64,000 nt of DNA, taken from Halanaerobium saccharolyticum. Its GTDB lineage: Bacteria; Bacillota; Halanaerobiia; Halanaerobiales; Halanaerobiaceae. How positions within the stretch are numbered: the stretch's first letter is position 1; the number at the start of each line of letters is the position of its first letter. The DNA is taken from contig NZ_SNWX01000004.1 in assembly GCF_004362045.1 (NCBI RefSeq), positions 105,396 through 169,395 on the forward strand. Direction: 5' to 3'. Below the pieces are notes generated by a model. That model did not search any database and had not been told where the DNA came from. It saw nothing but the letters and a program-made list of their open reading frames with translations. Below, piece after piece: positions 45,101-61,834 of this stretch. Both the position numbers and the translations under genes were made by a program.

Positions 45101-45105
45101 TTAAA

Positions 45106-45501
45106 TTGAATGTTTTAAAAAGCGATACACTGGGTTATAAGATGATCTTTTCTAATCAGCGATGGGGGGTTGGATATAAAAATTATTCTCCCCAGCAAGA
45201 TCTGGTCTGGCAGAGACACTTTGAGAGTGATGAGGGATTTATACTTTTATCAGGTAAATGTTGTTTGTTAACTAAAAATGAGGGAAAGATAGATATTAAC
45301 TGGCTGGAAAAGTCAAAATTTTATCTGGTAAAAAAGAATGAATGGCATTTTAATTTGATGTTTAAAGATGCTGAAATATTTATAGTTGAAAATAATGATG
45401 TAAGTGAGTCAAATACTGAAAACGTAAAGCTTACAGAATCGGAGCAAAAATTCTTAAATAAAAATGAAGAAATATTAGATTTATTAAAAGAATTTTCTTA
45501 A
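45106..45501 (+). CDS. Cupin-like hypothetical protein
   Basis: A 131-residue protein with beta-rich pattern (QRWGVGYKNYSP, VWQRHFESDEGFILLSGKCCLLT, FYLVKKNEWHFNLMFKDAEIFIVE) like a small cupin. The metal ligands are incomplete. TTG 45106 is preferred because TGGAG lies 7-8 bases before it; GTG 45097 is too close. It starts within a few bases of the ROK stop, so the two are coupled. It may bind or isomerise a sugar; the function is unknown. Confidence 0.6.
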   Translation: MNVLKSDTLGYKMIFSNQRWGVGYKNYSPQQDLVWQRHFESDEGFILLSGKCCLLTKNEGKIDINWLEKSKFYLVKKNEWHFNLMFKDAEIFIVENNDVSESNTENVKLTESEQKFLNKNEEILDLLKEFS

Positions 45502-45528
45502 TATTATTACATGGAAAGGGGGTAAAAT

Positions 45529-46698
45529 ATGCTGCAGTTATTAAATGCTGATCTGATAACTCCATATCAGATCAAAAAAGCAAATCTTTTAATCCAGAAC
45601 AAAAAAATTATTAGCATTGGTAACAATATACATCAGGATGCAGAAACTCTAGACTTAACTGGCAAATATATAGCACCTGGTTTTATTGATATCCACTTAC
45701 ATGGGGGTGGCGGAGCTGATTTAATGGATGGTGATGTAGATTCCATTTTAAAAATTGCTGAAAGTCATATTAAGTACGGTACCACAAGTTTTTATCCTAC
45801 TACTTTAACAGCAAAAGATGAAGAATTATTTAAATTGTTTGATAATTTAAAAATAGCAATATCCAAAAATAACAAAGGTGCCAGAATTATGGGGGTTCAC
45901 TTAGAAGGTCCATATTTATCTGCTAATCAAAAAGGAGCTCAAGATGAAAGATTTTTAAAAGAACCAATCGCAGAGCATTATAAAAAAATTATAAATAGTT
46001 CAGATTATATTGCGCGAGTTACCGCAGCACCAGAAATACCAGGAGCATTAGAATTGGCATCTTTTTTACAGCAAAAAGGTATTATTGCATCTATTGGGCA
46101 TACTGATGCAGAATATCAGGATATGCTCAAGGCGCTTGAACATGGATATAGTTTACTGACTCATTTTTATTCGGGTATGAGTTCCTTAAAGAGGGTAAAT
46201 GGTTCTAGAGTCCTTGGAGCTGTAGAATCAGGATATTTATTTGATGAATTTAATGTGGAAATTATTGCAGATGGATATCATCTGCCACCTGAATTATTAA
46301 AATTGATTTATAAGATAAAAGGAGCAGACAGTATAGTTTTAGTGACAGATGCTATGCGTGGTGCAGGAATGCCGGAAGGTAAGTCTATTTTAGGTAGTTT
46401 AGAAAATGGTATAGAAGTAATAATTGAAGATGGAGTTGCAAAGATGCCGGATCGTCAGGCCTTTGCAGGCAGTGTTGCAACAATGGACAGGCTTGTTCGA
46501 AATATGATTAAATTAGCAGATGTTCCCTTAACTGAAGCAGTTAAAATGGCTACACTTACTCCAGCAAAAATAATGGGTATTGCTGATCAAAAAGGAACTA
46601 TCTCTCAGGGGAAAGATGCTGATTTGGTTATTTTAAATAAAGAATTAGAAGTTGAAATTGTTATTGTAGAGGGAGATATACGATATCAAAAGGGATAA
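45529..46698 (+). CDS. nagA: N-acetylglucosamine-6-phosphate deacetylase
   Basis: A 389-residue amidohydrolase. It has the metal site DIHLHGGGGADLMDG, GVHLEGPYLS, IGHTDA, a variant THFYSGMSS where the family normally has THLFNAM, and VTDAMRGAGMP. It removes acetate from GlcNAc-6-phosphate in the cytosol. The partner NagB is encoded after the TRAP genes. GGGGGT precedes the ATG. The variant motif is worth noting but the catalytic Asp and His are kept. Confidence 0.92.
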   Translation: MLQLLNADLITPYQIKKANLLIQNKKIISIGNNIHQDAETLDLTGKYIAPGFIDIHLHGGGGADLMDGDVDSILKIAESHIKYGTTSFYPTTLTAKDEELFKLFDNLKIAISKNNKGARIMGVHLEGPYLSANQKGAQDERFLKEPIAEHYKKIINSSDYIARVTAAPEIPGALELASFLQQKGIIASIGHTDAEYQDMLKALEHGYSLLTHFYSGMSSLKRVNGSRVLGAVESGYLFDEFNVEIIADGYHLPPELLKLIYKIKGADSIVLVTDAMRGAGMPEGKSILGSLENGIEVIIEDGVAKMPDRQAFAGSVATMDRLVRNMIKLADVPLTEAVKMATLTPAKIMGIADQKGTISQGKDADLVILNKELEVEIVIVEGDIRYQKG

Positions 46699-46720
46699 GA
46701 ATTATTTTTTAATTAATTAG

Positions 46721-46741
46721 TTAGTTAACCTAATTAATTAA
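46721..46741 (+). promoter_or_regulatory. ROK operator, copy 2 (inverted)
   Basis: Exact reverse complement of the 21-bp site at 43865-43885, placed before the TRAP genes, with an extra half-site (TTAATTAATTAG) just upstream. Confidence 0.75.
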
Positions 46742-46833
46742 CTATTAAGGGAGGTGATGCTGCTAATAAAAGCGATATGGAGTTTTTATGGTCTTTAGAA
46801 ATTATTAAAACAAAATTATGGGGGTATAAAAAA

Positions 46834-47799
46834 ATGAAGAAAATTTTATCTTTGCTTTTCGTATTTGCTTTGTTATTAACCTTTGGGCAGACTGTTATGG
46901 CTGAGACAATCACTTTAAAACTCGCTGAGAATCAACCTGCAGATAACCCTGTGACAAAAGCAGATCTCTATTTTGCTGACTTAGTTGAAGAAAAAACAAA
47001 TGGGGAAGTAGTAATTGATGTACACTATGGTGCCACTTTAGGTCAGGAAGCAGAAACAATTTCTATGGCTCGTACTGGTGTTGTTGCAATGGCAAGAGTA
47101 AATGCTGTACCACTGGCAGAAGTTGTAAGTGATGTTGGAGTATTTAATCTACCTTTTATTTTCAGTAATTATGATCATCTCTGGAATGTACTAGAAAGTG
47201 ATGTTGGAACAGAAATTAATAGCAAACTTGAAGAAGTTGGTCTGGTAGGTCTTACCTGGTTTGAATCTGGTTTTAGAAGTTTTTATACAACTGAACCGGT
47301 AGCAGAACTAAGTGATCTGGCAGGAATGAACATCAGAGTTCAGGAAGCTGAATTACCAATGAAAATGGTGGAACTTCTTGGAGCGAACCCAACACCGATG
47401 CCTTATGGTGATGTTTACAGTGGCCTACAGACTGGTGTAATTGATGGTGCAGAAAATGATTATGTAAGTTATTATACTTCAAGTCATTATGAGGTTGCTC
47501 CATATTATGCAGTAGATAATCATATACATCCACCAGCAATTATCATAATGAATAAAGCTAAACTTGAAAGTCTTTCTAAAGAACATCAGCAGGCAATAAT
47601 GGAAGCTGCAGAAGAAGCAAAAGAATTTGAAAAACAAGAAATGAGAGCTTTCCAGGATGAATCTAAAGCAAAAGTATTAGAAGCTGGAGTAGAAATTACA
47701 GAAGTAGATACATCAGAGTTTCAGGAAGCAGTAATGCCACTTTATGAAGAGTATCCTGAGCTCCAGGGTTATATTGATAGAATTATTGAATTACAATAA
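46834..47799 (+). CDS. dctP: TRAP transporter solute-binding protein (DctP)
   Basis: A 321-residue secreted protein. Residues 1-24 form a signal peptide (MKKILSLLFVFALLLTFGQT ... MA). DctP features are KLAENQPADNPVTKADLYFADLV, the conserved Arg in DLAGMNIRVQEA, and YGDVYSGLQTGVIDGAEND. ATG 46834 is chosen for the GGGGG site and signal peptide; a longer frame to 46777 lacks these. Position inside the nagA-nagB operon points to an amino sugar or sialic-acid-type ligand. Confidence 0.92.
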   Translation: MKKILSLLFVFALLLTFGQTVMAETITLKLAENQPADNPVTKADLYFADLVEEKTNGEVVIDVHYGATLGQEAETISMARTGVVAMARVNAVPLAEVVSDVGVFNLPFIFSNYDHLWNVLESDVGTEINSKLEEVGLVGLTWFESGFRSFYTTEPVAELSDLAGMNIRVQEAELPMKMVELLGANPTPMPYGDVYSGLQTGVIDGAENDYVSYYTSSHYEVAPYYAVDNHIHPPAIIIMNKAKLESLSKEHQQAIMEAAEEAKEFEKQEMRAFQDESKAKVLEAGVEITEVDTSEFQEAVMPLYEEYPELQGYIDRIIELQ

Positions 47800-47812
47800 A
47801 CACTTATTTACA

Positions 47813-47842
47813 GGTATAATCCTCTGCAAAGGGGATTATACC
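47813..47842 (+). promoter_or_regulatory. Hairpin between dctP and dctQ
   Basis: GGTATAATCC (47813-47822) and GGATTATACC (47833-47842) form a perfect 10-bp stem without a T-run. Confidence 0.7.
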
Positions 47843-47865
47843 ACTTTAAATCTGGGGGTAAGCTT

Positions 47866-48366
47866 ATGCCAAAAAAATTGTTAAATCAAATTTATGAAGG
47901 TATTTATAAAATCATAACTTTTATCTGTGTTTCTTCATTAATAGTTTTAGTAGCTTTAGTCTTTGTATCAGTGGTTATGCGTTATGTATTTAGTTCGCCA
48001 ATTAGGGGGGCTCAGGAGTTTTCGATATATTTATTATTATGGTTTGGATTTCTGGGAATCATTAAAGGTCATAGAGATGGAAACCATATTAGTATAACCT
48101 TTTTTGTAGACAAGTTACCTGAAAAAGGGAAAAAAGTAATGAATTTATTTTCAGAATTAATGATTATGCTATTTAGTGGAACAATGTTTTATCAGGGGCT
48201 TAAGTTATATGAATACAATATAATTAGTCCATTACCTGCTACTAATATTCCTTCGAGAACACTTGCTGTTTTAATAAGTATAGTAGGGATAATGTTAGTA
48301 ATACAGAGCACTATTAAAATGTTTTTTATGGTGTTTAGGGAGGGAGAAACATGGAGCCGGCAATAA
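47866..48366 (+). CDS. dctQ: TRAP transporter small permease (DctQ)
   Basis: A 166-residue membrane protein with four segments (FICVSSLIVLVALVFVSVVM, EFSIYLLLWFGFLGIIKG, MNLFSELMIMLFSGTMFYQ, LAVLISIVGIMLVIQSTIKM). RYVFSSPIRGAQEF and HRDGNHISITFF are typical DctQ. It overlaps the DctM gene by 16 bases. Sequence is clearly different from the DctQ at 35665, so the two TRAP systems are not a recent duplication. Confidence 0.9.
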   Translation: MPKKLLNQIYEGIYKIITFICVSSLIVLVALVFVSVVMRYVFSSPIRGAQEFSIYLLLWFGFLGIIKGHRDGNHISITFFVDKLPEKGKKVMNLFSELMIMLFSGTMFYQGLKLYEYNIISPLPATNIPSRTLAVLISIVGIMLVIQSTIKMFFMVFREGETWSRQ

Positions 48367-49634
48367 TTATACTCTTAGGATCATTTTTTCTTTTAATATT
48401 TTTAAATGTCCCGATAGCTTTTGCAATGGGTATATCTTCGGTTTTAACAAGTTATTATCTAGACATTCAATTAATCATGGTATTCCAGCGCATGATTTCT
48501 GGTTTGAGAACCTTTACTTTTCTGGCAGTTCCATTTTTTATTTTAGTCGGATTAATTATGGGGAATTCCGGTATTTCTGAAAAGATAATTAAATTTGCAA
48601 GTCTTTTTATCGGTAGAATCAAAGGTGGATTGGCCATGGTTAATGTATTGGCCAGTATGCTTTTTGGTGGAATTTCTGGTTCATCATCTGCTGATGTATC
48701 TTCAATTGGGGCTCTTTTAATTCCTTTGATGCAGGAGGAAGGATATGATGATGATTTTTCGGTTGCAGTAACTACAACTTCTTCAGTTCAGGGAGTAATA
48801 ATTCCACCAAGTCAAAATATAATTTATTACTCACTTGCTGCTGGCGGTTTATCTGTTGGACGTTTGTTTATAGCTGGTTATATACCTGGAATTACCCTTG
48901 GTATATTTTTGATGGTCTTATGTTATATTCTAGCTAGAAAGAGAGATTATCCAACTGGTGAAACCATTGCCTTAAAAGAGGTGCCTAAGGTTGTGTTTGA
49001 TTCATTTTTAGGACTATTTACTATAATTATAATTATTGGCGGTATTGTAGCTGGAGTATTTACTGCTACTGAATCAGCGGCAGTGGCTGTGGTTTATGTT
49101 CTGTTTTTATCTCTCTTTGTCTATAAGTCGCTGACTATAAAAGATATAATTAAAATTTTTAATCAGTCTATTGGCACACTCTCAATGATCATTGCAATAA
49201 TAAGTACCTCGAGTGCTTTTGCCTGGCTGCTGGCTTATTTAAATATTCCACAGCTATTATTAAATTCACTCCTAGGCATAACTGAGAATAGAATAATTTT
49301 ATTGCTTTTAATTAATGTTATTCTGCTCTTTTTGGGAATGATAATGGACATGGGAATTATAATCTTACTTATAACTCCAATATTACTGCCGATAGTTGTA
49401 CAACTTGGAATGAACCCAATTCAATTTGGGATCATGATGATGTTGAATCTGGGTATTGGCTTAAATACCCCTCCAGTTGGGACATCTTTATATATAGGCT
49501 GTGCAATAGCCGGTATAAAAATTGAAGAAACTTTAAAGATCTTAGTGCCATTTTACATAGTAATGGGAGCAGTGCTTTTATTAACTACATTCTGGCCAGA
49601 ATTTACATTATATTTACCAGATTTAATTTTCTAA
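48351..49634 (+). CDS. dctM: TRAP transporter large permease (DctM)
   Basis: A 427-residue membrane protein of about 12 segments. It shows LNVPIAFAMGISS, FLAVPFFILVGLIMGNSGIS, GGISGSSSADVSSIGA and NTPPVGTSLYIGCAIAG. It forms the permease for the amino sugar delivered by the DctP at 46834. The ATG follows GGGAGGGAG. It belongs to the ROK-controlled operon and is followed by nagB. Confidence 0.93.
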   Translation: MEPAIIILLGSFFLLIFLNVPIAFAMGISSVLTSYYLDIQLIMVFQRMISGLRTFTFLAVPFFILVGLIMGNSGISEKIIKFASLFIGRIKGGLAMVNVLASMLFGGISGSSSADVSSIGALLIPLMQEEGYDDDFSVAVTTTSSVQGVIIPPSQNIIYYSLAAGGLSVGRLFIAGYIPGITLGIFLMVLCYILARKRDYPTGETIALKEVPKVVFDSFLGLFTIIIIIGGIVAGVFTATESAAVAVVYVLFLSLFVYKSLTIKDIIKIFNQSIGTLSMIIAIISTSSAFAWLLAYLNIPQLLLNSLLGITENRIILLLLINVILLFLGMIMDMGIIILLITPILLPIVVQLGMNPIQFGIMMMLNLGIGLNTPPVGTSLYIGCAIAGIKIEETLKILVPFYIVMGAVLLLTTFWPEFTLYLPDLIF

Positions 49635-49665
49635 TTACAATTAATCAAATAGGAGGAAACAAAAA

Positions 49666-50403
49666 ATGAAGATAAATGTTTATCAAGACAAAAAAACAAC
49701 AAGTAAATATGCAGCAGAAAGAGCTAGAGAGATTTTGATTGAAAGTATCGAAAAAGATGGGGAAGCAGTATTTATTATTGCTACCGGTAATTCTCAACTT
49801 GATTTTTTAGCAGCACTGGTAGAGTTTGATGATATAGATTGGTCCAAAACTAAGCTTTATCATTTGGATGAATATGTAGGTATAGATGAAACTCATAAGG
49901 CCAGTTTTAGAAAATATATTAAAGAAAACTTCATTTCTAAAGTTGGTGAATTAAAAGAAATTAATTTAATTGATGGCATGAATGATCCAGAAAAAGAATG
50001 TCAGAGGTTGAATCAAAAAATTAAGGAAGAAGATAAAATCCAGGCGGCATTTGTTGGCATAGGTGAAAACGGTCATCTGGCTTTTAATGAACCACCTGCA
50101 GATTTTGAAGAAGAAGCGCCTTTTATTATTATTGAGCTGGATGATGTTTCCCGAAAACAGCAGGTTAAAGAAGGCTGGTTTGAGACTATTGCTGATGTTC
50201 CCAAAAATGCGATTACGATGACAGTTAAACAGATTATGAAGTCAGAAAATATTATCTGCACAGTGCCCGGTTCAAGAAAAGCCGAGGCTGTAAAAAATTG
50301 CCTGGGAGATGATAAAATTTCAGTTGACTGTCCTTCCTCAATTTTAAAAGAGCATAAAAGTACAGATGTCTTTTTAGACGAAGATTCGGCAGAATTGTTA
50401 TAA
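49666..50403 (+). CDS. nagB: Glucosamine-6-phosphate deaminase
   Basis: A 245-residue enzyme with IATGNSQLDFLAAL, YHLDEYVG (catalytic Asp), GIGENGHLAFNEPPADF (catalytic Glu/His) and TVPGSRKAEAVKN. It converts glucosamine-6-phosphate to fructose-6-phosphate and ammonia in the cytosol. It closes the amino-sugar operon; AGGAGGAA precedes the ATG and a terminator follows the stop. No separate GlcNAc kinase is in the cluster. Confidence 0.93.
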   Translation: MKINVYQDKKTTSKYAAERAREILIESIEKDGEAVFIIATGNSQLDFLAALVEFDDIDWSKTKLYHLDEYVGIDETHKASFRKYIKENFISKVGELKEINLIDGMNDPEKECQRLNQKIKEEDKIQAAFVGIGENGHLAFNEPPADFEEEAPFIIIELDDVSRKQQVKEGWFETIADVPKNAITMTVKQIMKSENIICTVPGSRKAEAVKNCLGDDKISVDCPSSILKEHKSTDVFLDEDSAELL

Positions 50404-50418
50404 ATTAAAATTATAAAT

Positions 50419-50479
50419 AAGACTCCCTTTTAAAAAAACGGTAGTATAAAAAAAGTGGGACATAGAAGGGAGTCTTTTT
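50419..50479 (+). terminator. Terminator after nagB
   Basis: AAGACTCCCTT (50419-50429) pairs with AAGGGAGTCTT (50466-50476), followed by T-run. Confidence 0.8.
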
Positions 50480-50515
50480 ATAAATACGATTTTAAATATC
50501 TTAAATATTTTGAAT

Positions 50516-50549
50516 TTGACAAAAATAATAAAGTGTGTAATAATATAAT
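50516..50549 (+). promoter_or_regulatory. Promoter of the ABC/NAGPA operon
   Basis: TTGACA (50516-50521). The -10 is AATAAT or TAATAT near 50539-50546, with a TATAAT at 50544-50549 at poorer spacing. Confidence 0.55.
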
Positions 50550-50567
50550 AAAGTTTTTTAAATAAAA

Positions 50568-50583
50568 TTGCTAACGATGGCAA
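50568..50583 (+). promoter_or_regulatory. LacI-type operator O1
   Basis: TTGCTAACGATGGCAA, a near-perfect palindrome about 20-30 bases downstream of the promoter. Confidence 0.75.
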
Positions 50584-50620
50584 AAAAAATTAAAGCAAGG
50601 AGGTTATTTTTTGAATTATT

Positions 50621-50636
50621 TTGCCAACGATGGCAA
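50621..50636 (+). promoter_or_regulatory. LacI-type operator O2
   Basis: TTGCCAACGATGGCAA, perfect palindrome (arms TTGCCA/TGGCAA), 53 bp from O1 centre to centre (about five helical turns). It lies between two candidate starts of the binding protein. Confidence 0.8.
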
Positions 50637-50649
50637 AAAGGGGGACAAA

Positions 50650-51900
50650 ATGAGAAAAAATATTATTTTGCTGACTTTTTTACTTATCGTTCTAGTTTCT
50701 ATTTCCGTAGGTGCTGAAGACATAGTTTTAAATTATTACTCTCATGGCGTAGAAAATGGTACCAGAATGGATATTATTGAAGAGTTTGAGGCAACACATC
50801 CTGGAATAAAAGTAAATTTAGTAGAATTACCACAGGATACAAATAAAAAGTTACAGATGATAAATACTATTTTACAGTCTCAGGATAATTCAATGGATAT
50901 TTTTGATTCTGATGTGACATGGCCACCAATTTTTGCAGCTGCTGGTTGGGTAGAGCCTTTAGATGGCTACTTATCTGAAGTTGAAATGGACGATTTTTTA
51001 CCTGGACCGGTTGGTGCAGTAACATACATGGGTAAAGTATGGGGAGTTCCTTATCGTACAGATGCTGGAATGCTCTATTACAGAAAAGATCTTTTAGAAA
51101 AACATAATAAAGAAGTGCCTAAAACCTGGGATGAATTAATTGAAACTTCCAGGTATATTATGGAGAGGGAAGAAGGAATTAAAGGTCATGCAGGTTCCTG
51201 GGCTCAATATGAAGGTTTAACCTGTAACCTGATGGAATTTGTCTGGAGTTATGGAGGAAAAGTGTTTAATGAAGAAGGAGAAGTAGTCTATAATAGCCCT
51301 GAAACAGTTGCAGCTGTTTCAACAATGACTGATATGATTAATAAAGATAATATTATGCCTAATGGTATAGTTAATTTTTATAGTGGTGATGCAAGAGCGC
51401 CTTTCTTCTCCGGTAAACTTGTATTCTTAAGAGACTGGCCAAGTGGATGGCGTAAGTCCCAGAATCCTGATAACTCTCAGGTGGTTGGAAAAGTGGGAAT
51501 TGCAGCTCTTCCAATGGGAAGTCCTGATCAGAGAAGTTATTCCACTCTGGGCGGCTGGCAGGTAATGGTTTCTAAGTATTCAGATCATAAAGAAGAGGCA
51601 GTTGAATTTGCCAAGTTCAGAGGCGGTAAAGAAGCTCAGAAGATGGCTGCTCTAGGTCTAAGTCATATTCCTGCTAGAGAATCATTATATTCTGATTCTG
51701 ATATTCTAGAAAAAATGCCTTTTATTGAAGATATGTTTCCTGCTTTTGTAAGTGCATACCCAAGACCTAAGTCTCCTTATTATGCAGAGGTTTCCAATAT
51801 TCTGCAGGTGGAAACACAAAAAGCATTTGTAGAAGATAAAACAGCAGCAGAGGCTGTAAAAGATGCTGATCAAAGAATTAAAGATTTACTGGGACAATAA
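50650..51900 (+). CDS. ABC transporter sugar-binding protein
   Basis: A 416-residue family-1 extracellular binding protein. The signal peptide (MRKNIILLTFLLIVLVSISVGA) has no lipobox Cys. DCATWPP-like phrase FDSDVTWPPIFAAAGWVEPL, VWGVPYRTDAGMLYYRKDLL and FYSGDARAPFFSGK match MalE/UgpB-type proteins. ATG 50650 fits the signal peptide and has AAGGGGG; an alternative TTG at 50611 has an excellent AGGAGGT site and would add 13 residues. The operator O2 sits between. The ligand is unknown, but a glycoside is likely given the genes downstream. Confidence 0.9.
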   Translation: MRKNIILLTFLLIVLVSISVGAEDIVLNYYSHGVENGTRMDIIEEFEATHPGIKVNLVELPQDTNKKLQMINTILQSQDNSMDIFDSDVTWPPIFAAAGWVEPLDGYLSEVEMDDFLPGPVGAVTYMGKVWGVPYRTDAGMLYYRKDLLEKHNKEVPKTWDELIETSRYIMEREEGIKGHAGSWAQYEGLTCNLMEFVWSYGGKVFNEEGEVVYNSPETVAAVSTMTDMINKDNIMPNGIVNFYSGDARAPFFSGKLVFLRDWPSGWRKSQNPDNSQVVGKVGIAALPMGSPDQRSYSTLGGWQVMVSKYSDHKEEAVEFAKFRGGKEAQKMAALGLSHIPARESLYSDSDILEKMPFIEDMFPAFVSAYPRPKSPYYAEVSNILQVETQKAFVEDKTAAEAVKDADQRIKDLLGQ

Positions 51901-51912
51901 CTAATAAAATCT

Positions 51913-51934
51913 GGGGCTATGTTCGCATAGCCCC
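51913..51934 (+). promoter_or_regulatory. Hairpin after the binding-protein gene
   Basis: GGGGCTATG (51913-51921), TTCG loop, CATAGCCCC (51926-51934). No T-run; probably protects the binding-protein mRNA. Confidence 0.7.
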
Positions 51935-51955
51935 CAAACTATTGGGGTTGATTGA

Positions 51956-52831
51956 ATGAAGGCTAAAGACAAAATGGGATATTTATTTATTATTCCTTCT
52001 TTAATTTTGATTTTTGCTTTAATATTGTATCCTGTATTTAATACACTTTATTTAAGTTTTTTTAACTATAGGGTTCAGACAATGGCATTAGGAAAGACTT
52101 TTGTTGGTTTAAGAAATTTTATTAAAATCTTTAATGATGAGACTTTTTTTAAATCATTAAAATTTACCCTGCTTTTTACAGTAGTAGCAGTAAGCATGGA
52201 AACCATAATTGGAATGATCTTTGCTAATATAATGAATAGAAAACTTCCAGGTCAGGGAATTATTAGAACTTCAGTTTTAATCCCCTGGGCTATTCCTACA
52301 ATAATTTCAGGTTTGATGTGGAAGTTTATGTACAGTCAGCAGTACGGCATAATTAATCATATTTTTTTAAAGTTACAGTTTATTAAGGAAGCAATTCCCT
52401 GGCTCAGTGATTCTTTTGTTGCTGTTATCGCAGTAATTATTGCAGATGTCTGGAAAACAACACCATATATGTCGCTTTTAATCTTATCCGGCCTTCAGAC
52501 AATTCCGATTCAACTTTATGAAGCAGCAGCGATAGATGGAGCAAATAGAAAAGATATTTTTCTTAAAATTACATTACCACTAATTAAGCCGGTTTTATCT
52601 GTAGCTATTTTGTTCAGGGTGCTTGCTACTTTTAGAATATATGATTTAATTGCAGTTTTAACAAGTGGTGGCCCGGCAAATGCTACTCAAAGTTTATCTT
52701 TATATACTATTAAGACATACTTTGATTTTGGGAATATTGGTTATGGAGCTGCACTTGCAACTGTGACTTTTATAATTTCCCTACTCATTAGTTTATTGTT
52801 TTTAGATTCTCTTAAATCAAAATTGGAATAG
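51956..52831 (+). CDS. ABC sugar transporter permease (MalF-like)
   Basis: A 291-residue membrane protein with six segments and the conserved EAA loop (YEAAAIDGANRKDIFLKITLPLIKP). It forms the inner-membrane channel with the next gene. GGGGTTG precedes the ATG. As is common for such operons, no ATPase gene is present, so a shared MsmK-type ATPase elsewhere must power it. Confidence 0.92.
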   Translation: MKAKDKMGYLFIIPSLILIFALILYPVFNTLYLSFFNYRVQTMALGKTFVGLRNFIKIFNDETFFKSLKFTLLFTVVAVSMETIIGMIFANIMNRKLPGQGIIRTSVLIPWAIPTIISGLMWKFMYSQQYGIINHIFLKLQFIKEAIPWLSDSFVAVIAVIIADVWKTTPYMSLLILSGLQTIPIQLYEAAAIDGANRKDIFLKITLPLIKPVLSVAILFRVLATFRIYDLIAVLTSGGPANATQSLSLYTIKTYFDFGNIGYGAALATVTFIISLLISLLFLDSLKSKLE

Positions 52832-52841
52832 GGGAGATAAA

Positions 52842-53693
52842 ATGCTAAAATTATCAGATATTAAAAATAATAAGTATTTAGTAAATTTCTTATACCTGAT
52901 ATTTTTTATATTTTTTGTTGGTACAATTGCTTTTCCTTTTATCTGGCAGTTTTTAAATTCTTTTAAAACACAACGGGATCTTTTTAGTGTGCCGCCAACA
53001 TTCTGGCCAACTGAGTGGACTTTAGAGAACTATATTGATGCTTTTACCAGACAGCCTTTTTTGTTATACATAAAAAATAGTTTTGTAATTGCTATTTTAA
53101 GTACCTTTCTTTCTATTACAATAGGTAGTCTGGCCAGTTATTCGATATCCAGAACAAATATAAAGTTTAAAAAAACATATTTATTATTACTGTTAAGTAT
53201 TACTCTTTTACCACCAATCACAATTGTTAACCCTTTATATATGCTCATGAGAAGCTTGAATTTGTTAAACTCTTATTTGGGGCTTGCAATTGTAAATACA
53301 ATCTTTGGACTGCCGCTTGCAGTCTGGTTTTTATCAGGTTTTTTTGATACGATTCCTAAAGAATTAGAAGAAAGTGCTTTAATAGACGGAGCAACCATTT
53401 TTCAGGCTTTTTATAAAATAATTGTTCCTTTAGTAATTCCCGGTATTTTTACGGTCAGTATTCTAGTTTTTATAGCTGCCTGGAATCAATATTTATTTGC
53501 TCAAATTTTAAATCCGCTCAGGGTTAGAAGGACTATTACAGTTGGAATAACACTTTATCAAACGGATTACACAATTCCCTGGGGAACAATTTCTGCAGCA
53601 TCAATTATTGTCACTGTACCTCTTTTGATTTTAGTATTATTACTGCAGAGAAAAATTATTTCTGGAATGCTAGAAGGTGGAGTAAAGGGATGA
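52842..53693 (+). CDS. ABC sugar transporter permease (MalG-like)
   Basis: A 283-residue membrane protein with about six segments. The EAA-type loop reads EESALIDGATIFQAFYKIIVPLVIPG. The first membrane segment starts after a short cytosolic tail. It pairs with the MalF-like gene. The stop overlaps the next gene's start by 4 bases (ATGA), so the large NAGPA-domain gene is co-translated with the transporter. Confidence 0.92.
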   Translation: MLKLSDIKNNKYLVNFLYLIFFIFFVGTIAFPFIWQFLNSFKTQRDLFSVPPTFWPTEWTLENYIDAFTRQPFLLYIKNSFVIAILSTFLSITIGSLASYSISRTNIKFKKTYLLLLLSITLLPPITIVNPLYMLMRSLNLLNSYLGLAIVNTIFGLPLAVWFLSGFFDTIPKELEESALIDGATIFQAFYKIIVPLVIPGIFTVSILVFIAAWNQYLFAQILNPLRVRRTITVGITLYQTDYTIPWGTISAASIIVTVPLLILVLLLQRKIISGMLEGGVKG

Positions 53694-56233
53694 GCAGAGA
53701 AAAATTTAGCAGTATATATAATCAAAACTATATAGGTGGATCTTTTTTGAGAAAAGAACTTAAAGGGCATTTTCAATTTTATCGTTATAATTATGCTGCT
53801 TTAAGTGTAGATGCTGCTAAGGGTAATTTTAAGATGAAGGATTCACTAAATGATTTTTTATTTACAAAAAATATAATTAGCAAAAAGGAATATAAAGCTT
53901 TTTATGATTATTTAAGAGAGTATTTCTATTCGTTTTCAGAGCTTGCAGATTTAAGTGATGAAGAAATTTATGGTGAAATTCAAAAGCATAGATGGAATAT
54001 TTATAGGGGTCAAGCTTTTTCAGATTTAAGAGAACTTAGAAATAACAATTTAAAAAAGTGTTATAATAAATCACAACAAATTAATGATTTAGACTCTTTG
54101 TTAAAAGAAATAATCTACTCTGATTTAGAAATTGAGAAGAGGAAAATGCAGAGTCCAATAAATAAAATTGAGAACCTAAAAAAAGAAATTTTAAGAAGTG
54201 ATAAGGAACTAACTTTAATTGCAGATCACTATACTCAGCTGCCTTTTTTATTGAAATTAATTTCTGATAACCTACTTAATGGAAAAAAAGAAATTGAGAT
54301 TAAAATTAATCTTTTATTAAAAAAAAGGACTACGGTAGCTGAACCTGATCTCAGTGATTGGGAATATTTAAATAGCATTGCCAAAAATGATCAATTAGAA
54401 AGTTTAGTTCAAGACTATAGATTTAAGCTTTTATCATATAATAGTTACAGTCCTGGAATTGATTTATCAGAGCTCGATCTGGCTGTAAAAGAGATATTTT
54501 CAAGAGCAGTAAAAAGAAAGAGCCTTGTTATTGGTTTTGGAGAAAGTTTAATTTTTTCACTAAATCAATCTAATTTTGACTATTATATTTTAGCTGCAGT
54601 CAGATCAATTAGAGCACAGCGTTATACAAATCTTTACCGGAATGGATCTGTAAACATACCCTTTATTGCCGCTAAAGTTTTTGCAGGCGAAACTGCAGCC
54701 TTAAATTTTTCTGGAGTAGAGCTAATTGATAAAACCTTATACCATTATAATTATTTATTTGATAAGATAGGAAGGCATAAAGATCAGAGTATAAATGAAT
54801 TATGTCCAAAAATTAAGTTCAATTTTTATTCAAACACATTTTTAGACTCTGATTTGCCAGAGTTTGAAATTAATAGGAAAAATAATTTATCAAATATTGA
54901 AAGTATCAAACAGGCAAGATTTAAAGCAATAATTGAAAATAATAATAAGCTAATTTATCAGAGTTCTTATTATGATTTAAAAGATTTTACTAGACTTAAT
55001 AAAATTAATAATTTGAAAGAAATTGAGGAACCTCTTATTTTTAACAGTATTATAGTTAAAGATCCAGCAAAAATAGAATTAAAACCCTTTTTAGCAGAAG
55101 GCACTAATAATGGTATAGTTTCAGCTCGTCAATTAGTTAAAAAATCAATTCAGCCTAAAAATTCAGCTTTTTATCATAACTTTTTATACTTCCTTACAGA
55201 TAAGTTGATTTCTGATTATAATGAATTGAGAAAAGAGTATCCGTTAGAACAGTTAAACTTGGACAATATATTTTTGGGATATTACCTGCAAAATAGGGGT
55301 AGCAGAAAAGAAAGTTTTCCCCTGTATAATAAAGGTTTTATGGGTTATAGTAATTCTGGTCAAATTATTTTTGGTAATAGGAGGCTTGAGGGTGGAAATT
55401 TGGAGATTAATGGTTATAAAATTTCCTGGACAAAAGAACAGGTCAATTCTTTAGAGAAAAATTTTGATTTTATAATTTATACTCCGATGATTGAAAATGA
55501 AAGTTTAGCTGAAAAAGTTATAGATTTTCGCAATTATAAATACTTTATTGGTAGAGATAGGTTGAATCTGTTGTTGATTGATAATAAAATTGTAGTTGTA
55601 AAAGAGGGAGAGCTAGTAATGCCAAGTATTGGTGTAGTTCTTTCTTTTGTTGGAGAAATGAAAGCTAAGATCAAGAGAATCTTAAATTTAGAAGAAATTA
55701 AAGGCCAGTATTATCAGACAGCTGAATATAATTTAAATATAAAACTTGATCCTCCTTCTGAAATAGCTAAAAAAGACTGGGAAGATATAGTCTGGGCCTA
55801 TGGTGGTGGGACTATTTTAGTTAAAAATGGTGATAATCTTGTTAAAAATAGAGAAAGCCAGATAGAAGCTTTTAAAAACGAAGGCTGGTTTCATCCCCTT
55901 TCTAAAAGAACTCAGGAAACTCAGCTTCAAAAATGGGAAAGGGGTCCAAGAACAGTTATTGGAACTACAAAGGATCAAAGATTTTTTGTGGCAACTTTTT
56001 CAGGTAGAACTCGTTTAAGCTGTGGAGCTAATTTTGCTGAAGTAGTAGAAATTTTAAAGAAAGAAATTAAAAATTTAAACTGGGTAATGAATCTTGATGG
56101 TGGAGCATCAAGTTGCTTAGCTTTAATTTATAAAAAAGAGTTTTTTGAACTAAACTATCCTGCGGTTTCAAATTATACGGCTGCAGGAATGGCAAGACCT
56201 GTTAATTCAATGATCTTTATAAAAAAGAGATAA
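53690..56233 (+). CDS. Large protein with C-terminal phosphodiester glycosidase (NAGPA) domain
   Basis: An 847-residue protein. The last 150 residues are a NAGPA domain: RGPRTVIGTTKDQRFFVATFSGR, then WVMNLDGGASSCLALIYK and GMARPVNSMIFIKK. This family removes sugars attached through a phosphodiester. The first 690 residues are helical and charged and I cannot name them. There is no signal peptide, so it should act in the cytosol, unlike mammalian NAGPA. It is coupled to an ABC sugar transporter and followed by the LacI regulator and a glycosyltransferase, suggesting that the imported compound is a sugar-phosphodiester. Confidence 0.8.
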   Translation: MSREKFSSIYNQNYIGGSFLRKELKGHFQFYRYNYAALSVDAAKGNFKMKDSLNDFLFTKNIISKKEYKAFYDYLREYFYSFSELADLSDEEIYGEIQKHRWNIYRGQAFSDLRELRNNNLKKCYNKSQQINDLDSLLKEIIYSDLEIEKRKMQSPINKIENLKKEILRSDKELTLIADHYTQLPFLLKLISDNLLNGKKEIEIKINLLLKKRTTVAEPDLSDWEYLNSIAKNDQLESLVQDYRFKLLSYNSYSPGIDLSELDLAVKEIFSRAVKRKSLVIGFGESLIFSLNQSNFDYYILAAVRSIRAQRYTNLYRNGSVNIPFIAAKVFAGETAALNFSGVELIDKTLYHYNYLFDKIGRHKDQSINELCPKIKFNFYSNTFLDSDLPEFEINRKNNLSNIESIKQARFKAIIENNNKLIYQSSYYDLKDFTRLNKINNLKEIEEPLIFNSIIVKDPAKIELKPFLAEGTNNGIVSARQLVKKSIQPKNSAFYHNFLYFLTDKLISDYNELRKEYPLEQLNLDNIFLGYYLQNRGSRKESFPLYNKGFMGYSNSGQIIFGNRRLEGGNLEINGYKISWTKEQVNSLEKNFDFIIYTPMIENESLAEKVIDFRNYKYFIGRDRLNLLLIDNKIVVVKEGELVMPSIGVVLSFVGEMKAKIKRILNLEEIKGQYYQTAEYNLNIKLDPPSEIAKKDWEDIVWAYGGGTILVKNGDNLVKNRESQIEAFKNEGWFHPLSKRTQETQLQKWERGPRTVIGTTKDQRFFVATFSGRTRLSCGANFAEVVEILKKEIKNLNWVMNLDGGASSCLALIYKKEFFELNYPAVSNYTAAGMARPVNSMIFIKKR

Positions 56234-56280
56234 AATAAAGCAGTAAAAAGGTCTAGTTAACTCAAAAAGGAGTTTTTAAA

Positions 56281-57306
56281 ATGAATGAAGATAAATATAC
56301 TGTTAAAGACATAGCCAAAATGTCTGGTTTTTCTGTCAGGACAGTATCGAGGGTAATCAATGATAAACCAAATGTAAAAGATGAAACAAGAGCAAAGATA
56401 AAGAAAATATTAAAAGAAACTGGTTTTCAGTCAAATATTTTTGCAAAAAATTTAAGAAAAAGAGATATGAAAAATATTATGATCGTTATCGAGAAACAGA
56501 AAAAAATCTATCCTGGTCAGTGGTATACAAATATCTTACAGAAAATGATTAATACTGCCTCCAGTAAAGGATATAATGTTTTCATGAAAGAATATGTGCC
56601 AGAAAAGGCTAAAGAAGAATCAGAGGCTTTTAAACTTTTGCGATCAGGCTTTGTCGATGCTGCTGTAGTATTCAATATAAGAGAAAAAGATGAAAAAGTA
56701 AAGATGCTAAAAAAATTAAACCTACCTTTTGTTACTATTGGAAAGTCGGTTGAATTTGATGAGGTTCCATATGTAGTTAGTAATAACTGGCAGGGAGCAT
56801 ATCAGGCCGCTGATTATTTGATAACTCAGGGGAATAAAGAATTAGTTTTTATGGTGGGTAGTAAAAAATATACGATTAATAAGGATAGAATTTCCGGTTT
56901 TAAAGGAGCATTAAAAGATAATAATGTTAATTTTAGAACTAATATGATTTATGAAGATATAAGATCATTTAAGGATAGTTATAACTTAGCAAAGAAATTG
57001 ATTGCTGAAAATAGAGTTCCAGAAGCTTTTTTTATTTCTGGTGATGAAAAATCTTTTGGTGTTTTAAAGGCTTTAAATGAGAAAGGTTTTAAGGTTCCAG
57101 ATGAAGTTTCAGTTATAGGGTTTGATAACATTCCAATTTCTGAATATGCTATTCCCGCTTTAACTACAATAGAACAGCAGGCAGATAAAATTGTTCAGGA
57201 AACTGTAAATATTTTAATGAATATTTTAAATAATAATGATCAGGAATTTGAAATGCAGAAAGTTATTCCAACTAAATTAATAATAAGAGATTCAACAGGG
57301 AGGTAA
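56281..57306 (+). CDS. LacI-family transcriptional regulator
   Basis: A 341-residue protein. The helix-turn-helix and hinge are clear (YTVKDIAKMSGFSVRTVSRVINDKPNVKDETRAKI split over residues 6-40). The periplasmic-binding-like domain follows (MKNIMIVIEKQ, VISNNWQGA-type phrase, ISGFKGAL, VIGFDNIPISEYAIPALTTIEQ). It should bind the two TTGCxAACGATGGCAA sites before the operon and fall off when it binds a sugar. AAGGAG precedes the ATG. Confidence 0.92.
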   Translation: MNEDKYTVKDIAKMSGFSVRTVSRVINDKPNVKDETRAKIKKILKETGFQSNIFAKNLRKRDMKNIMIVIEKQKKIYPGQWYTNILQKMINTASSKGYNVFMKEYVPEKAKEESEAFKLLRSGFVDAAVVFNIREKDEKVKMLKKLNLPFVTIGKSVEFDEVPYVVSNNWQGAYQAADYLITQGNKELVFMVGSKKYTINKDRISGFKGALKDNNVNFRTNMIYEDIRSFKDSYNLAKKLIAENRVPEAFFISGDEKSFGVLKALNEKGFKVPDEVSVIGFDNIPISEYAIPALTTIEQQADKIVQETVNILMNILNNNDQEFEMQKVIPTKLIIRDSTGR

Positions 57307-57311
57307 TAATA

Positions 57312-58526
57312 TTGAAGCTGGCAATGGTGATTAATGTCTATATAGATACAAAAATAAATAAAAAAAATAAATTTGATCATCCTACAGATTTTGATAATTT
57401 TGAGAATGAAAATACTTTTGTTAAAACTATTGCAAGTATTAATAAGTTGAGAAAAACTGAAGATGATTTAAGCTTATATATATTTGCTGTGGCAGCAGGT
57501 GAAGACAGAAGTCATGACCAGGAAATTAAAAAGAAAATAAATAAGATATTAAGAAAAAGCAGCTATCCATATTATCTATTTACTAATAGTGATGTAAAGC
57601 AATTAAATGATTATGCTAAGAGTAGATTTTTTTCAGTTAGTGGTTATCCTGAGATAAGAAATTTGGGGTTAATCATTCCCTCACTGCTTAATGAAGACAT
57701 TATTATTCAGATAGATGATGATGAATTATTGCGGAAAGACTATTTAATGACTTTAAAACGGATTTTAAAGGATAACCCAGATAAATATCTTTTTACTGCC
57801 CCTTACGAAAAAAATGGAACGACTGAAATAAATAATAAGGATTCTTTAAAATCATGGCGAAAATTTTATTCAATGCAAAAAGATATGAATAGATTAATGA
57901 AAGATCAAAGTTTAAAAGAAACACTTTTTGGTTTTGGTGGTAACATGATTATTAGAAATGAACTGGCTGAAAATTCTTTATATCCCTCCGGTGTTCCAAG
58001 AGGTGAGGATTTTTCTTATCTTTTAGCAAATAGATTGATATATGAAAATGGTAACCCCGAAGCTGGAATAGAAAAGAAAAATGAAATTTATAAAGCTTAT
58101 TTTTCACCTTTAAAAGAATTAACAATAATTCATGAACCTCCAGCTGAAGCAAAAAGTAACTTTTTATTTTATTTAGAAAAGAATCTAAAGAGATTTATTA
58201 TGGAATGGAGTATTTTTAATAAGCAGGATAACTTATCAGTTTCCGAATTAAAAAATTTGTCTTATTATTTAGCAGAAATGTTTGGTTATGATGATTTTAA
58301 ATCTAAATTATTAGATATTATAGAAGAGGTTAAAGTTAATTATGATTCTAAAACAGCCGAAAACTTCGAAAAAGAAATACTCAGTTTTTATGATCAATGT
58401 AGTAAAATTAACAGGTTTGAATTATATAAAAAAGATCAGAGCGATTATATAGATTTTCTTGACAATTGGAAGGACAATAATGAATTTAGAGAGCTGCTTT
58501 TAAGTTTCAAAATAAATAGAAATTAG
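57312..58526 (+). CDS. GT-A-type glycosyltransferase-like protein
   Basis: A 404-residue soluble protein. A beta-alpha N-terminal half leads to the DDD-type metal motif (IIIQIDDDELLRKDYL, near 135), then FGFGGNMIIRNELA and PRGEDFSYLLANRLIYE (near 228). This is the layout of GT2-like transferases using nucleotide sugars. TTG 57312 follows GGGAGGT at proper spacing. It sits 5 bases after the LacI gene. A catabolic operon with a glycosyltransferase is unusual: it may build, or act in reverse on, the sugar-phosphodiester handled by the NAGPA protein. Confidence 0.75.
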   Translation: MKLAMVINVYIDTKINKKNKFDHPTDFDNFENENTFVKTIASINKLRKTEDDLSLYIFAVAAGEDRSHDQEIKKKINKILRKSSYPYYLFTNSDVKQLNDYAKSRFFSVSGYPEIRNLGLIIPSLLNEDIIIQIDDDELLRKDYLMTLKRILKDNPDKYLFTAPYEKNGTTEINNKDSLKSWRKFYSMQKDMNRLMKDQSLKETLFGFGGNMIIRNELAENSLYPSGVPRGEDFSYLLANRLIYENGNPEAGIEKKNEIYKAYFSPLKELTIIHEPPAEAKSNFLFYLEKNLKRFIMEWSIFNKQDNLSVSELKNLSYYLAEMFGYDDFKSKLLDIIEEVKVNYDSKTAENFEKEILSFYDQCSKINRFELYKKDQSDYIDFLDNWKDNNEFRELLLSFKINRN

Positions 58527-58769: not shown

Positions 58770-58818
58770 AATACAGTACATTGTATTTTATTTTTGTGCC
58801 ATTGTACAGAAAATTGTA
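58770..58818 (+). promoter_or_regulatory. Two inverted repeats before yhfZ
   Basis: AATACA-N6-TGTATT (58770-58787) and TACA-N6-TGTA (58805-58818), 33 bp apart centre to centre. Their position just after the promoter fits binding of the YhfZ regulator. Confidence 0.55.
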
Positions 58819-58837
58819 TATTAAAAGGAGGAATTTG

Positions 58838-59773
58838 ATGGTTTCTGAAATAAAAAGCAAAATGATGTCAAAAATAGGATTTATAACTTCCATGCTGGCC
58901 CGGGACTTTTTCTTAAAAAATAAAGGCGAAAGAATTGACACAATTAGTGGTTATGCAGAGCGCTACAATACAGGTCGGGGTACTATCCAGTCTGCTATAT
59001 CATTTTTAACTGAACATCAGGCTGTAGAGCTGGAGTCAAAAGGACATTTAGGCAGCTATATTCTTGATTTAGATTATCATCTGCTCTGGGAAATTGCAGA
59101 TCTGGGAATGATTATGGGACTTTTACCACTTCCTTATTCTCTGCGCTATGAGGGGCTGGCAACAGGCTTAAACCAGGAGTTTAAAAAGGCAGATTTTAAT
59201 TATAGTATTGCCTATACCAGAGGGGCAGAAAAAAGACTGAATGTCCTGAAAGATGACAAATATGATTTTATAGTTTTATCAAAATTTGCAGCTGATAATT
59301 ATGATGATCAGGACCAATTTGAAATTTTTTGTGAATTTGGACCTGGAACCTATCTTTCTAAACATGTGATAGTTTTTTCGGATCCGGAAGCTAAAGAGAT
59401 TGAAAGTGGAATGAGGATCGGTCTTGACTCAACTTCAATTGACCATAAGCTTTTAACAGAGTTGGAATGTCAGAATCGTGATGTAGAATTTGTAGAATTA
59501 ACTTATATGAAAATTATGGAGCATATAAAAAATAAAACTATAGATGCAGCAGTCTGGAATTATGATGAGATTAAAGATTTAGATAATATAAACTTTACTG
59601 AGCTGCAAAATGATAGTTCTATTTCCAAAAATAAAGATATCAGTAATGCAGTTATTTTAATTAATAAAAACAGCAAAATGATCAGGAGACTTTTAACTAA
59701 AACAATTATTCCTGAGGAAGTAATTAAAACTCAAAAAGAGGTATATAATCATAAATTAATTCCGGAATATTAG
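58838..59773 (+). CDS. yhfZ: YhfZ-like HTH regulator
   Basis: A 311-residue protein. An N-terminal GntR-like winged helix (YAERYNTGRGTIQSAISFLTEHQAVELESKGHLGSYI split over residues 35-75) is followed by a periplasmic-binding-like effector domain (MGLLPLPYSLRYEGLATGL, YDFIVLSKFAA). This matches E. coli YhfZ, the presumed regulator of the yhf operon. ATG 58838 follows AAAGGAGGAA; a longer frame to 58781 would start inside the operator. It heads the operon that runs past the window end. Confidence 0.85.
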   Translation: MVSEIKSKMMSKIGFITSMLARDFFLKNKGERIDTISGYAERYNTGRGTIQSAISFLTEHQAVELESKGHLGSYILDLDYHLLWEIADLGMIMGLLPLPYSLRYEGLATGLNQEFKKADFNYSIAYTRGAEKRLNVLKDDKYDFIVLSKFAADNYDDQDQFEIFCEFGPGTYLSKHVIVFSDPEAKEIESGMRIGLDSTSIDHKLLTELECQNRDVEFVELTYMKIMEHIKNKTIDAAVWNYDEIKDLDNINFTELQNDSSISKNKDISNAVILINKNSKMIRRLLTKTIIPEEVIKTQKEVYNHKLIPEY

Positions 59774-59783
59774 GGGGATAAAA

Positions 59784-60158
59784 ATGGATTCAAAATTAAA
59801 ACAGCGCCTGGAGATACTGGTAGCAGGTGAGCAGCTGGAAGCTGAGTTAAAAGAAAAAATTGAGGATTTGTTAAAAAAATTTGAGTCTGATTTTGAGCTT
59901 GAATTAAAAAATGAGAATGCAGCTATGCTGGTGACTCACCTACCAATGGCCTTGATGAGAATTAAAAGAGGTGAGGAAGTCGAAGATTTAGATGAAGTAA
60001 TTTTACTGGAATTAAAAAAAGAAAATTTTTATTCTGAATGTATGGATTTTATAGATCAGATAGAAACTAAAACTAAAATTAAAATTCCTGCTGGAGAGAA
60101 AAACTATCTGGCATTACATTTTTGCAATTTAATTAAACAGGAAAGGAGGAAAAACTAA
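59784..60158 (+). CDS. yhfY: PRD-domain protein (YhfY-like)
   Basis: A 124-residue single PRD domain (LVTHLPMALMRIKRGEEV, IKIPAGEKNYLALHFCNLIKQ), with conserved His residues that PTS proteins can phosphorylate. E. coli YhfY is the same size and position. The stop codon and the next start overlap by 1 base (TAATG). It probably links operon output to sugar phosphotransferase activity. Confidence 0.82.
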   Translation: MDSKLKQRLEILVAGEQLEAELKEKIEDLLKKFESDFELELKNENAAMLVTHLPMALMRIKRGEEVEDLDEVILLELKKENFYSECMDFIDQIETKTKIKIPAGEKNYLALHFCNLIKQERRKN

Positions 60159-60514
60159 TGAAAATTGTAGTTGGAGGTCAGGTTGATCGTCAGGAGATAG
60201 CCAATAAAATTAAGGAAATAGCTGGAGAAAAGGTAGAAGTTGAAGTGATGGATGATATTCAGGCTGCTACTGCTATTAAAAGTGGAAATGCTGACTATTA
60301 TTTTGGTGCCTGTCATACAGGCGGTGGTGGCGCTCTGGGAATGGCAATGGCGATTTTAACCAGTGCTAAATGTGCTACTGTATCGATGCCTGGTAGAGGA
60401 CCTAAGGCAGAGAAAATAAAAGAGGAAGTAGATGCTGGTAAGGTTGCCTTTGGATTTACCGCAGATCATATTGATAAAACTGTAACACTTTTACTAAAAA
60501 ATATCTTAGATTAA
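60158..60514 (+). CDS. yhfU: DUF2620 protein (YhfU-like)
   Basis: A 118-residue protein with VVGGQVDRQEIANKI, YYFGACHTGGGGALGMAMAILT and GFTADHIDKTV, the DUF2620 signatures. It resembles a glycine-rich EIIB-like alpha/beta domain. The family always lies next to YhfT and is presumed to be a partner of it. AAGGAGGAAA precedes the ATG. Confidence 0.85.
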   Translation: MKIVVGGQVDRQEIANKIKEIAGEKVEVEVMDDIQAATAIKSGNADYYFGACHTGGGGALGMAMAILTSAKCATVSMPGRGPKAEKIKEEVDAGKVAFGFTADHIDKTVTLLLKNILD

Positions 60515-60559
60515 ACAAAGATTAAACAAACTTAATAATCTAAACGAGGAGTGTATAAG

Positions 60560-61834
60560 ATGCAGACAATTTTAATGGCATTAATGGGTGGACTGGCAGC
60601 AATACTTACCAACAAGGGGATTGCAGTTTTTAATGATGGACTGCGGCCGATTATACCCGAATATGTTGAAGGAAGAATGAGCAAGCGCGATCTGGCAGCT
60701 ACCTCATTTGCGATGAGTTTTGGTCTGGTAATTGGTTTTGGAATTCCTTTTAGTTTATCAGCCAATATCCTGTTAATACATAGTATTTTACTGGGAACAG
60801 ATATTATTGGTACCTGGGCCCCGGACAGCAAAAAGGGAATGGCTACTGCAGGTATTGTTGGTGCTCTTTATGGGCTTGGTTTGATGTATGGACTTGAATT
60901 TGTAGTTAATATTTTTGAAAAAATGCCTGTTAATTTCTTGAGTGATCTGGGTAAGGTTGGAGACCCAATAGTTGTTGCCTTTGCTGCCTTCCCTGCTTTA
61001 GCAGTCGCTTATCAATTTGGCGTCAAAAAAGGTGCATTTACTCTCCTGGCAGCAGGTATTGTTAGACAGTTGGCTGTAACCTTTAGTCCCCTGATGCTGG
61101 GTGGGCTGGAAGTAAACGTTAATCCTGAAGGAATGGCTTTAATTACTGGAATGATTATCTTACTAATTTTTGCTACCAGAGAAAAAAGCAGCAGCAGTAA
61201 TGTTGGTGATCTGGTTTCAGTCTTTAGTGAAAGAGTTGCCAGAATCAAAAAGAATCTGCCTCTGCTGGCTTTAATGGGAGCTCTAGTTGCGGCAGCTACT
61301 GGCTATCAAATTTTAGCTGGAGATCCAATTTCTTTAAACTTAATGAAAGAAGGCGCTCTAAATGAAGCAGCCCTGGCAGCACTTGCTCGTGGAATTGGAT
61401 TTATACCTTTAATTGCTACTACAGCAATTGCAACAGGAGTATATAGTCCTGTTGGAATGACCTTTATCTTCGCTGCAGCTTTATTCTTAAAAAATCCACT
61501 GCTGGCAGCAGCTGCCGGTGCGATAATTATATCTCTAGAAATATTATTCCTGGATAATCTGGCAGGACTGCTGGATAGATTTCCTGGAATCAAAAAAGCT
61601 GGAGATAATATCAGAACAGCAATGTCTAAACTGCTGGAAGTAGCTCTTTTAGTTGGTGGTATGAATGCAGCTAATGCAATTATGCCTGGTTTTGGATTTC
61701 TCTTTGTTGCTGGGCTTTATATTTTGAATGAAATTGGAGACCAGCCGATAGTTAGAATGGCAGTTGGACCGACAGCAGCTATTTTAGTCGGAATTATTGC
61801 CAATGTTTTTGCCTTACTTTCTATCTCGTTTTAA
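60560..61834 (+). CDS. yhfT: YhfT-like membrane transporter
   Basis: A 424-residue integral membrane protein with about 10-12 segments (LMALMGGLAAILTNKGIA, ATSFAMSFGLVIGFGIPFSL, VVAFAAFPALAVAYQFG, MAVGPTAAILVGIIANVFALL). It matches the uncharacterised YhfT family, presumably the transporter for the operon's substrate. ATG 60560 follows GAGGAG. A strong hairpin follows its gene. Confidence 0.85.
   Translation: MQTILMALMGGLAAILTNKGIAVFNDGLRPIIPEYVEGRMSKRDLAATSFAMSFGLVIGFGIPFSLSANILLIHSILLGTDIIGTWAPDSKKGMATAGIVGALYGLGLMYGLEFVVNIFEKMPVNFLSDLGKVGDPIVVAFAAFPALAVAYQFGVKKGAFTLLAAGIVRQLAVTFSPLMLGGLEVNVNPEGMALITGMIILLIFATREKSSSSNVGDLVSVFSERVARIKKNLPLLALMGALVAAATGYQILAGDPISLNLMKEGALNEAALAALARGIGFIPLIATTAIATGVYSPVGMTFIFAAALFLKNPLLAAAAGAIIISLEILFLDNLAGLLDRFPGIKKAGDNIRTAMSKLLEVALLVGGMNAANAIMPGFGFLFVAGLYILNEIGDQPIVRMAVGPTAAILVGIIANVFALLSISF

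Follow-up and report, generated by a model that had tools for sequence, protein, structure and literature searches.

A putative LacI-repressed sugar-importer operon with a non-secreted NAGPA-type protein in Halanaerobium saccharolyticum

What would a glycosidase of a typically secreted family do inside the cell, among the genes of a sugar importer? Proteins with a NAGPA domain occur widely in the phylum (in 87 of 119 genomes) and are nearly always secreted, and to our knowledge the substrate specificity of the bacterial members is largely unknown. The window analysed here, a 64-kb stretch (64,000 nucleotides) of a 3.36 Mb Halanaerobium saccharolyticum genome assembled in 79 contigs, carries between 50516 and 58526 six open reading frames, all on the + strand, in which the usual sugar-cutting enzyme of a sugar-uptake operon is replaced by a rare, non-secreted NAGPA relative of 847 residues. 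We know of no other NAGPA-type enzyme in an ABC-importer operon. The original prediction, made from the letters of this DNA, named an ABC transporter, a NAGPA-domain protein, a LacI regulator and a glycosyltransferase, and all six genes are found in their places as one co-directional cluster.

The first gene encodes a CUT1 solute-binding protein (SBP) of 416 aa (50650-51900, +); its frame was listed from a TTG at 50611, but the ATG at 50650 is the proper start and yields a signal peptide. Two ABC permeases follow, of the MalF/UgpA type (51956-52831, +) and the MalG/UgpE type (52842-53693, +), and the Pfam matches of the three proteins (SBP_bac_1, E 1.5e-48; BPD_transp_1, 2.2e-17 and 2.8e-15) identify a CUT1 importer of the MalEFG type. 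The start of the 847-residue frame (53690-56233, +) overlaps the stop of the second permease by 4 bp (ATGA), with a good ribosome-binding site, GGTGGAG, upstream. The gene for a LacI-family repressor (56281-57306, +; Pfam LacI, 2e-14) starts 47 bp after it, and 5 bp after lacI comes that of a GT-A glycosyltransferase (57312-58526, +), whose TTG start is preceded by GGGAGG. There is no kinase or downstream catabolic enzyme within the operon, and the genome's single gene for a MalK/UgpC-type ATPase with an OB domain lies outside it on contig C33. G+C content is 30% for the operon and 28.6% for the 847-residue gene, against 33% for the whole window, and the lower operon value is compatible with acquired DNA.

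Upstream lies the sequence TTGACA-17-AATAAT (50516-50544, +; 11/12 matches), a putative promoter of the sigma-70 type in which TG precedes the second hexamer; it is the best in a region where the scan as a whole did not exceed chance, as judged by shuffled sequences. The leader also holds two putative operators for a LacI-family repressor, neither assigned to a strand: a palindrome at 50566-50585 (TTGCTAACGATGGCAA, at 50568) and a second at 50619-50638 (TTGCCAACGATGGCAA, at 50621, which is the palindrome TTTTGCCA-ACGA-TGGCAAAA), the two being spaced 53 bp or about five helical turns apart. A whole-genome scan allowing up to two mismatches returned these leader sites and one unrelated two-mismatch site; at 0 or 1 mismatch the leader sites were the only matches, and a control with the reversed pattern gave 0. 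The operators are a local, self-contained regulon, and presumably belong to the operon's own LacI gene.

The Pfam NAGPA family (PF09992) matches residues 671-844 of the 847-residue protein (E 2.9e-16; 60.6 bits against a curated cut-off of 25). In profile-profile alignment (hhalign) with ten canonical SPOR-SpoIID-NAGPA-type proteins of the same order, residues ~460-825 align to the whole NAGPA catalytic region (P 98.7, E 3.6e-16), which comprises ~385 residues spanning about 460-845 and is annotated here as ~460-847. The predicted C-terminal phosphodiester glycosidase domain is therefore present, but extends over ~460-845 and not only the last 160 residues; and because the profile alignment carries NAGPA homology back to ~460, the unexplained part, previously given as residues 1-690, is corrected to ~1-455. 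As in other NAGPA/DUF2233 glycosidases, which include the mammalian uncovering enzyme and the Halanaerobiales SPOR-SpoIID-NAGPA proteins, the core motifs are kept, here as GPRT, SGR and NLDGGAS, in agreement with the family pattern PRT, (D/S/T/N)GR and NLDGGxS. The protein differs from these glycosidases in lacking a secretion signal, in its unique 455-residue N-terminus and in its place in an ABC-transporter operon.

Loss of the Asp of DGR might be taken to mark a dead enzyme. This was rejected: the first residue of the motif is D, S, T or N across 46 sampled NAGPA loci, with SGR also in an ordinary member (L094), and because these residues occur naturally SGR is no sign of inactivity. Two further motifs do depart from the canonical sequence, as NGG(Y/F)F, a sub-motif that lies early in the catalytic region and is no part of the NAGPA family cut-off, is represented by NFLYF at 497-501, and VNR reads VNS. 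These changes, in a family whose bacterial members are poorly characterised, would fit a domain that is non-catalytic or not glycosidic, in a regulatory or storage-glycan factor present in the operon by chance; such a role seems unlikely, given that PRT, GR and NLDGG-S are kept, as are PR, GR and NLDGG-S in the 990-aa relative described below. AlphaFold runs on two-sequence alignments gave two models of pLDDT 29 and 33, which are unusable, and a PDB sequence search with the protein and its C-terminal profile found no homologue, the sole match to the 847-residue sequence being at chance level (E 0.26).

The N-terminus of the protein is not hydrophobic (best 15-residue mean 0.17) and there is no transmembrane segment (best 19-residue mean 1.52), which supports its description as cytosolic; of the 29 NAGPA proteins whose N-terminus could be read, 27 have a clear hydrophobic segment there, scored over a slightly longer span. 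A surface protein, whose match to the N-terminal part would have counted against the prediction, was rejected, there being neither signal nor transmembrane segment, and no such match was seen. At 46 other NAGPA loci, the 1.5 kb around the gene held no relatives of the window SBP, permeases, LacI or glycosyltransferase. The genome's second NAGPA protein (L063:6012-8216, on contig C1), a SPOR-SpoIID-NAGPA protein of 734 aa, is of the ordinary secreted type and is closely matched in most of the genomes sampled from the genus.

A survey of 38 genomes of the order gave a single full relative of the 847-residue protein, a 990-aa protein (genome G034), and none was found at E 1e-8 in 398 genomes across the phylum. 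A peptide-pattern scan of 85,000 species genomes led to the same single contig, JAGYMU010000084 (Halanaerobiales MAG M55B127; L023/L045); the two contig pattern scans, which used few peptide patterns and are of limited sensitivity, returned only this relative. In viral contigs, phages and plasmids no relative was found apart from one protein of an Acetoanaerobium record, which matched weakly and looks like an ordinary secreted NAGPA protein. The 990-aa protein matches residues 469-845 (27% identity, E 2e-23) and also 168-327 (24%, E 3e-4), and since both parts are matched the shared two-part architecture is real. It has NGAYF, and differs from the 847-residue protein in an N-terminal hydrophobic segment and in its neighbours, which include no transporter: its locus (L023:1-7278) encodes a PPDK-N-like protein, a ROK-like protein with an extra N-terminus, the NAGPA protein itself and a PGI with a hydrophobic N-terminus. 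These large proteins look unlike the rest of the MAG, a possible binning error, and since the other four genomes sampled from its genus lack the gene, the contig may not belong to the MAG.

Could the N-terminal part be a second enzyme? In the 990-aa protein it gives a weak Pfam match to ARMT1/DUF89 (PF01937; E 8e-4, 19.1 bits against a cut-off of 25); the 847-residue protein itself gives no DUF89 match in Pfam, and the paired 847/990 alignment runs in register with the DUF89 profile over one alpha/beta stretch (hhalign, single-target E 0.0024, probability 12%). The metal-binding DNxGE and KGQxN motifs of the DUF89/ARMT1 phosphatases are not kept. With the curated cut-off not reached and the motifs lost, membership of DUF89 was rejected, and the apparent resemblance, weak and degenerate, is a hint only. 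A glycosyl-phosphodiester import pathway with a two-domain cytosolic enzyme, in which the NAGPA part would free the sugar and a DUF89-like N-terminus would act on the resulting phosphomonoester, is in our view decidedly improbable.

Downstream of the operon (58781-61834) are a YhfZ-type regulator, a PRD-like protein, a small protein and a multi-TM permease, a set that resembles the poorly understood yhf cluster of E. coli. Upstream (43913-50403) an amino-sugar utilisation island lies beside the operon, comprising a ROK regulator, a small protein, NagA, a three-gene TRAP transporter and NagB. The canonical mammalian NAGPA, the uncovering enzyme, is an alpha-GlcNAcase that removes GlcNAc from GlcNAc-1-P-mannose (PMC12024695), and with nagA-TRAP-nagB directly upstream one may imagine that GlcNAc-1-phosphodiesters from wall or teichoic-acid fragments are imported, that the NAGPA domain frees GlcNAc and that NagA and NagB (45529-50403) complete the pathway. 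However, the nag genes are served by a TRAP transporter and a ROK regulator of their own, they are set apart from the operon by an inverted repeat with a T-run at ~50420-50480, and the operators are not found at them. The nagA-TRAP-nagB genes are a separate unit, and this form of amino-sugar salvage is quite unlikely.

The glycosyltransferase offers a different comparison. Its Pfam match is weak (0.0035, below the cut-off), a PDB search with its profile found no homologue (a profile including the cNMP domain matched cNMP proteins), and by sequence it appears to belong to an undescribed family, barely recognised by Pfam, in which the IDDDE and RGED motifs are invariant. Most relatives in the order are ~580 aa long, with a fused cNMP-binding domain, and lie in a conserved three-gene cluster. 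This encodes (L038:4470-8602) a 395-aa protein without a Pfam match, a GT4 and a GT-A fused to a C-terminal cyclic-nucleotide-binding domain, and recurs in an Acetoanaerobium record and at several of the Halanaerobiales loci sampled (L036, L037, L039, L041-L044, L114); the fused enzyme is perhaps gated by cyclic nucleotide. The 2.6-Mb Acetoanaerobium noterae ‘plasmid’ record (NZ_CP154629.1; L113, L114) carries housekeeping genes and resembles a chromosome. The short form without the cNMP domain is found in three genomes only, that of the window, G008 and G186, and all three copies adjoin LacI and a CUT1 transporter, the window enzyme being 25-28% identical to its relatives.

In G008 (L040) the short GT-A shares its operon with an MGG-synthase-like GT4 (NF041101, E 3e-135) and a sucrose-phosphorylase-like GH13, and in G186 (L064:9855-15397) it lies directly downstream of an MGG-type transporter in the order LacI-SBP-permease-permease-GT-A, with no MggS or GH13. 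The source genome has its own complete MGG/glucosylglycerate operon on contig C26 (L062:4423-16293), encoding LacI, SBP, two permeases, a MggS-like protein, a GH13_18-like enzyme resembling sucrose phosphorylase, two dehydrogenases, a hydroxyacid dehydrogenase and a glycerate kinase. The transporters of these three loci are 65-87% identical, whereas that of the window shares only 32-35% (permeases) and 23-25% (SBP) with them, too little for orthologous transporters, and its substrate may for this reason be unrelated to MGG. Both kinds of operon combine LacI, SBP and two permeases with one glycosyltransferase and one glycoside-cleaving enzyme, but the window operon has no GH13, no glycerate-processing genes and no MggS (NF041101), of which the genome's only copy is at C26, and its cleaving enzyme is NAGPA-type. 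The layout of the window operon is that of the MGG operon with both enzymes exchanged; a duplicate of the MGG operon was rejected, the identity being too low.

An alternative is an osmolyte system without any phosphodiester, in which the GT-A would make a glycosidic compatible solute, the transporter recapture leakage and the 847-residue protein degrade the solute when salinity falls. The order is halophilic, the same glycosyltransferase family sits in the G008 MGG operon beside the MGG-synthase-like and GH13 enzymes, and the MGG operon of the genome under study is complete, including genes for a glycerate kinase and a hydroxyacid dehydrogenase. Yet LacI control suggests induction by a substrate, not by salt, the product of so divergent a glycosyltransferase may differ, and the window and MGG SBPs are distant from each other. 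We regard an osmolyte role as rather doubtful.

The reading we prefer, at a probability of roughly 0.42, is of a LacI-repressed operon for the uptake and intracellular cleavage of a small glycoside, possibly a glycosyl phosphodiester. The SBP and permeases would import the glycoside, presumably powered by the genome's single MalK/UgpC-type ATPase, and the 847-residue protein would remove the sugar in the cytosol through its NAGPA-type domain, acting on a glycosyl-1-phosphodiester or another alpha-glycoside; the one pointer to a phosphodiester substrate is the family name of that domain. The imported compound or its product would release LacI from the two operators, probably opening a loop, and the GT-A, translated directly after LacI, may re-glycosylate the product or make a related solute from a nucleotide sugar. 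The broader proposal, a sugar-uptake operon under LacI control whose NAGPA-type enzyme is cytosolic, is supported. Recurrence of the gene set was borne out in part: the glycosyltransferase, LacI and CUT1 genes recur in two genomes, with an MGG-type transporter alongside, but the 847-residue gene accompanies this set in no other sampled genome of the order or phylum. The combination was found once in the genome collections examined, so there is no comparative sign that the 847-residue protein and the glycosyltransferase share one pathway, and the operon could be a chance assembly, because no further member of the protein's family was found in such a setting.

If the reading as a glycosyl-phosphodiester import pathway is true, this would be the first NAGPA-type enzyme known from an operon for an ABC importer, and glycosides linked through a phosphodiester would form a class of nutrients or osmolytes that has a dedicated uptake system. 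For a family whose bacterial substrates are almost unknown, a non-secreted member in a sugar-importer operon offers a tractable route to the substrate by way of the binding protein and of the effector of LacI. The GT-A family, tied to MGG-type transporters, provides a second lead, to what may be an undescribed step in glycosidic osmolyte metabolism.
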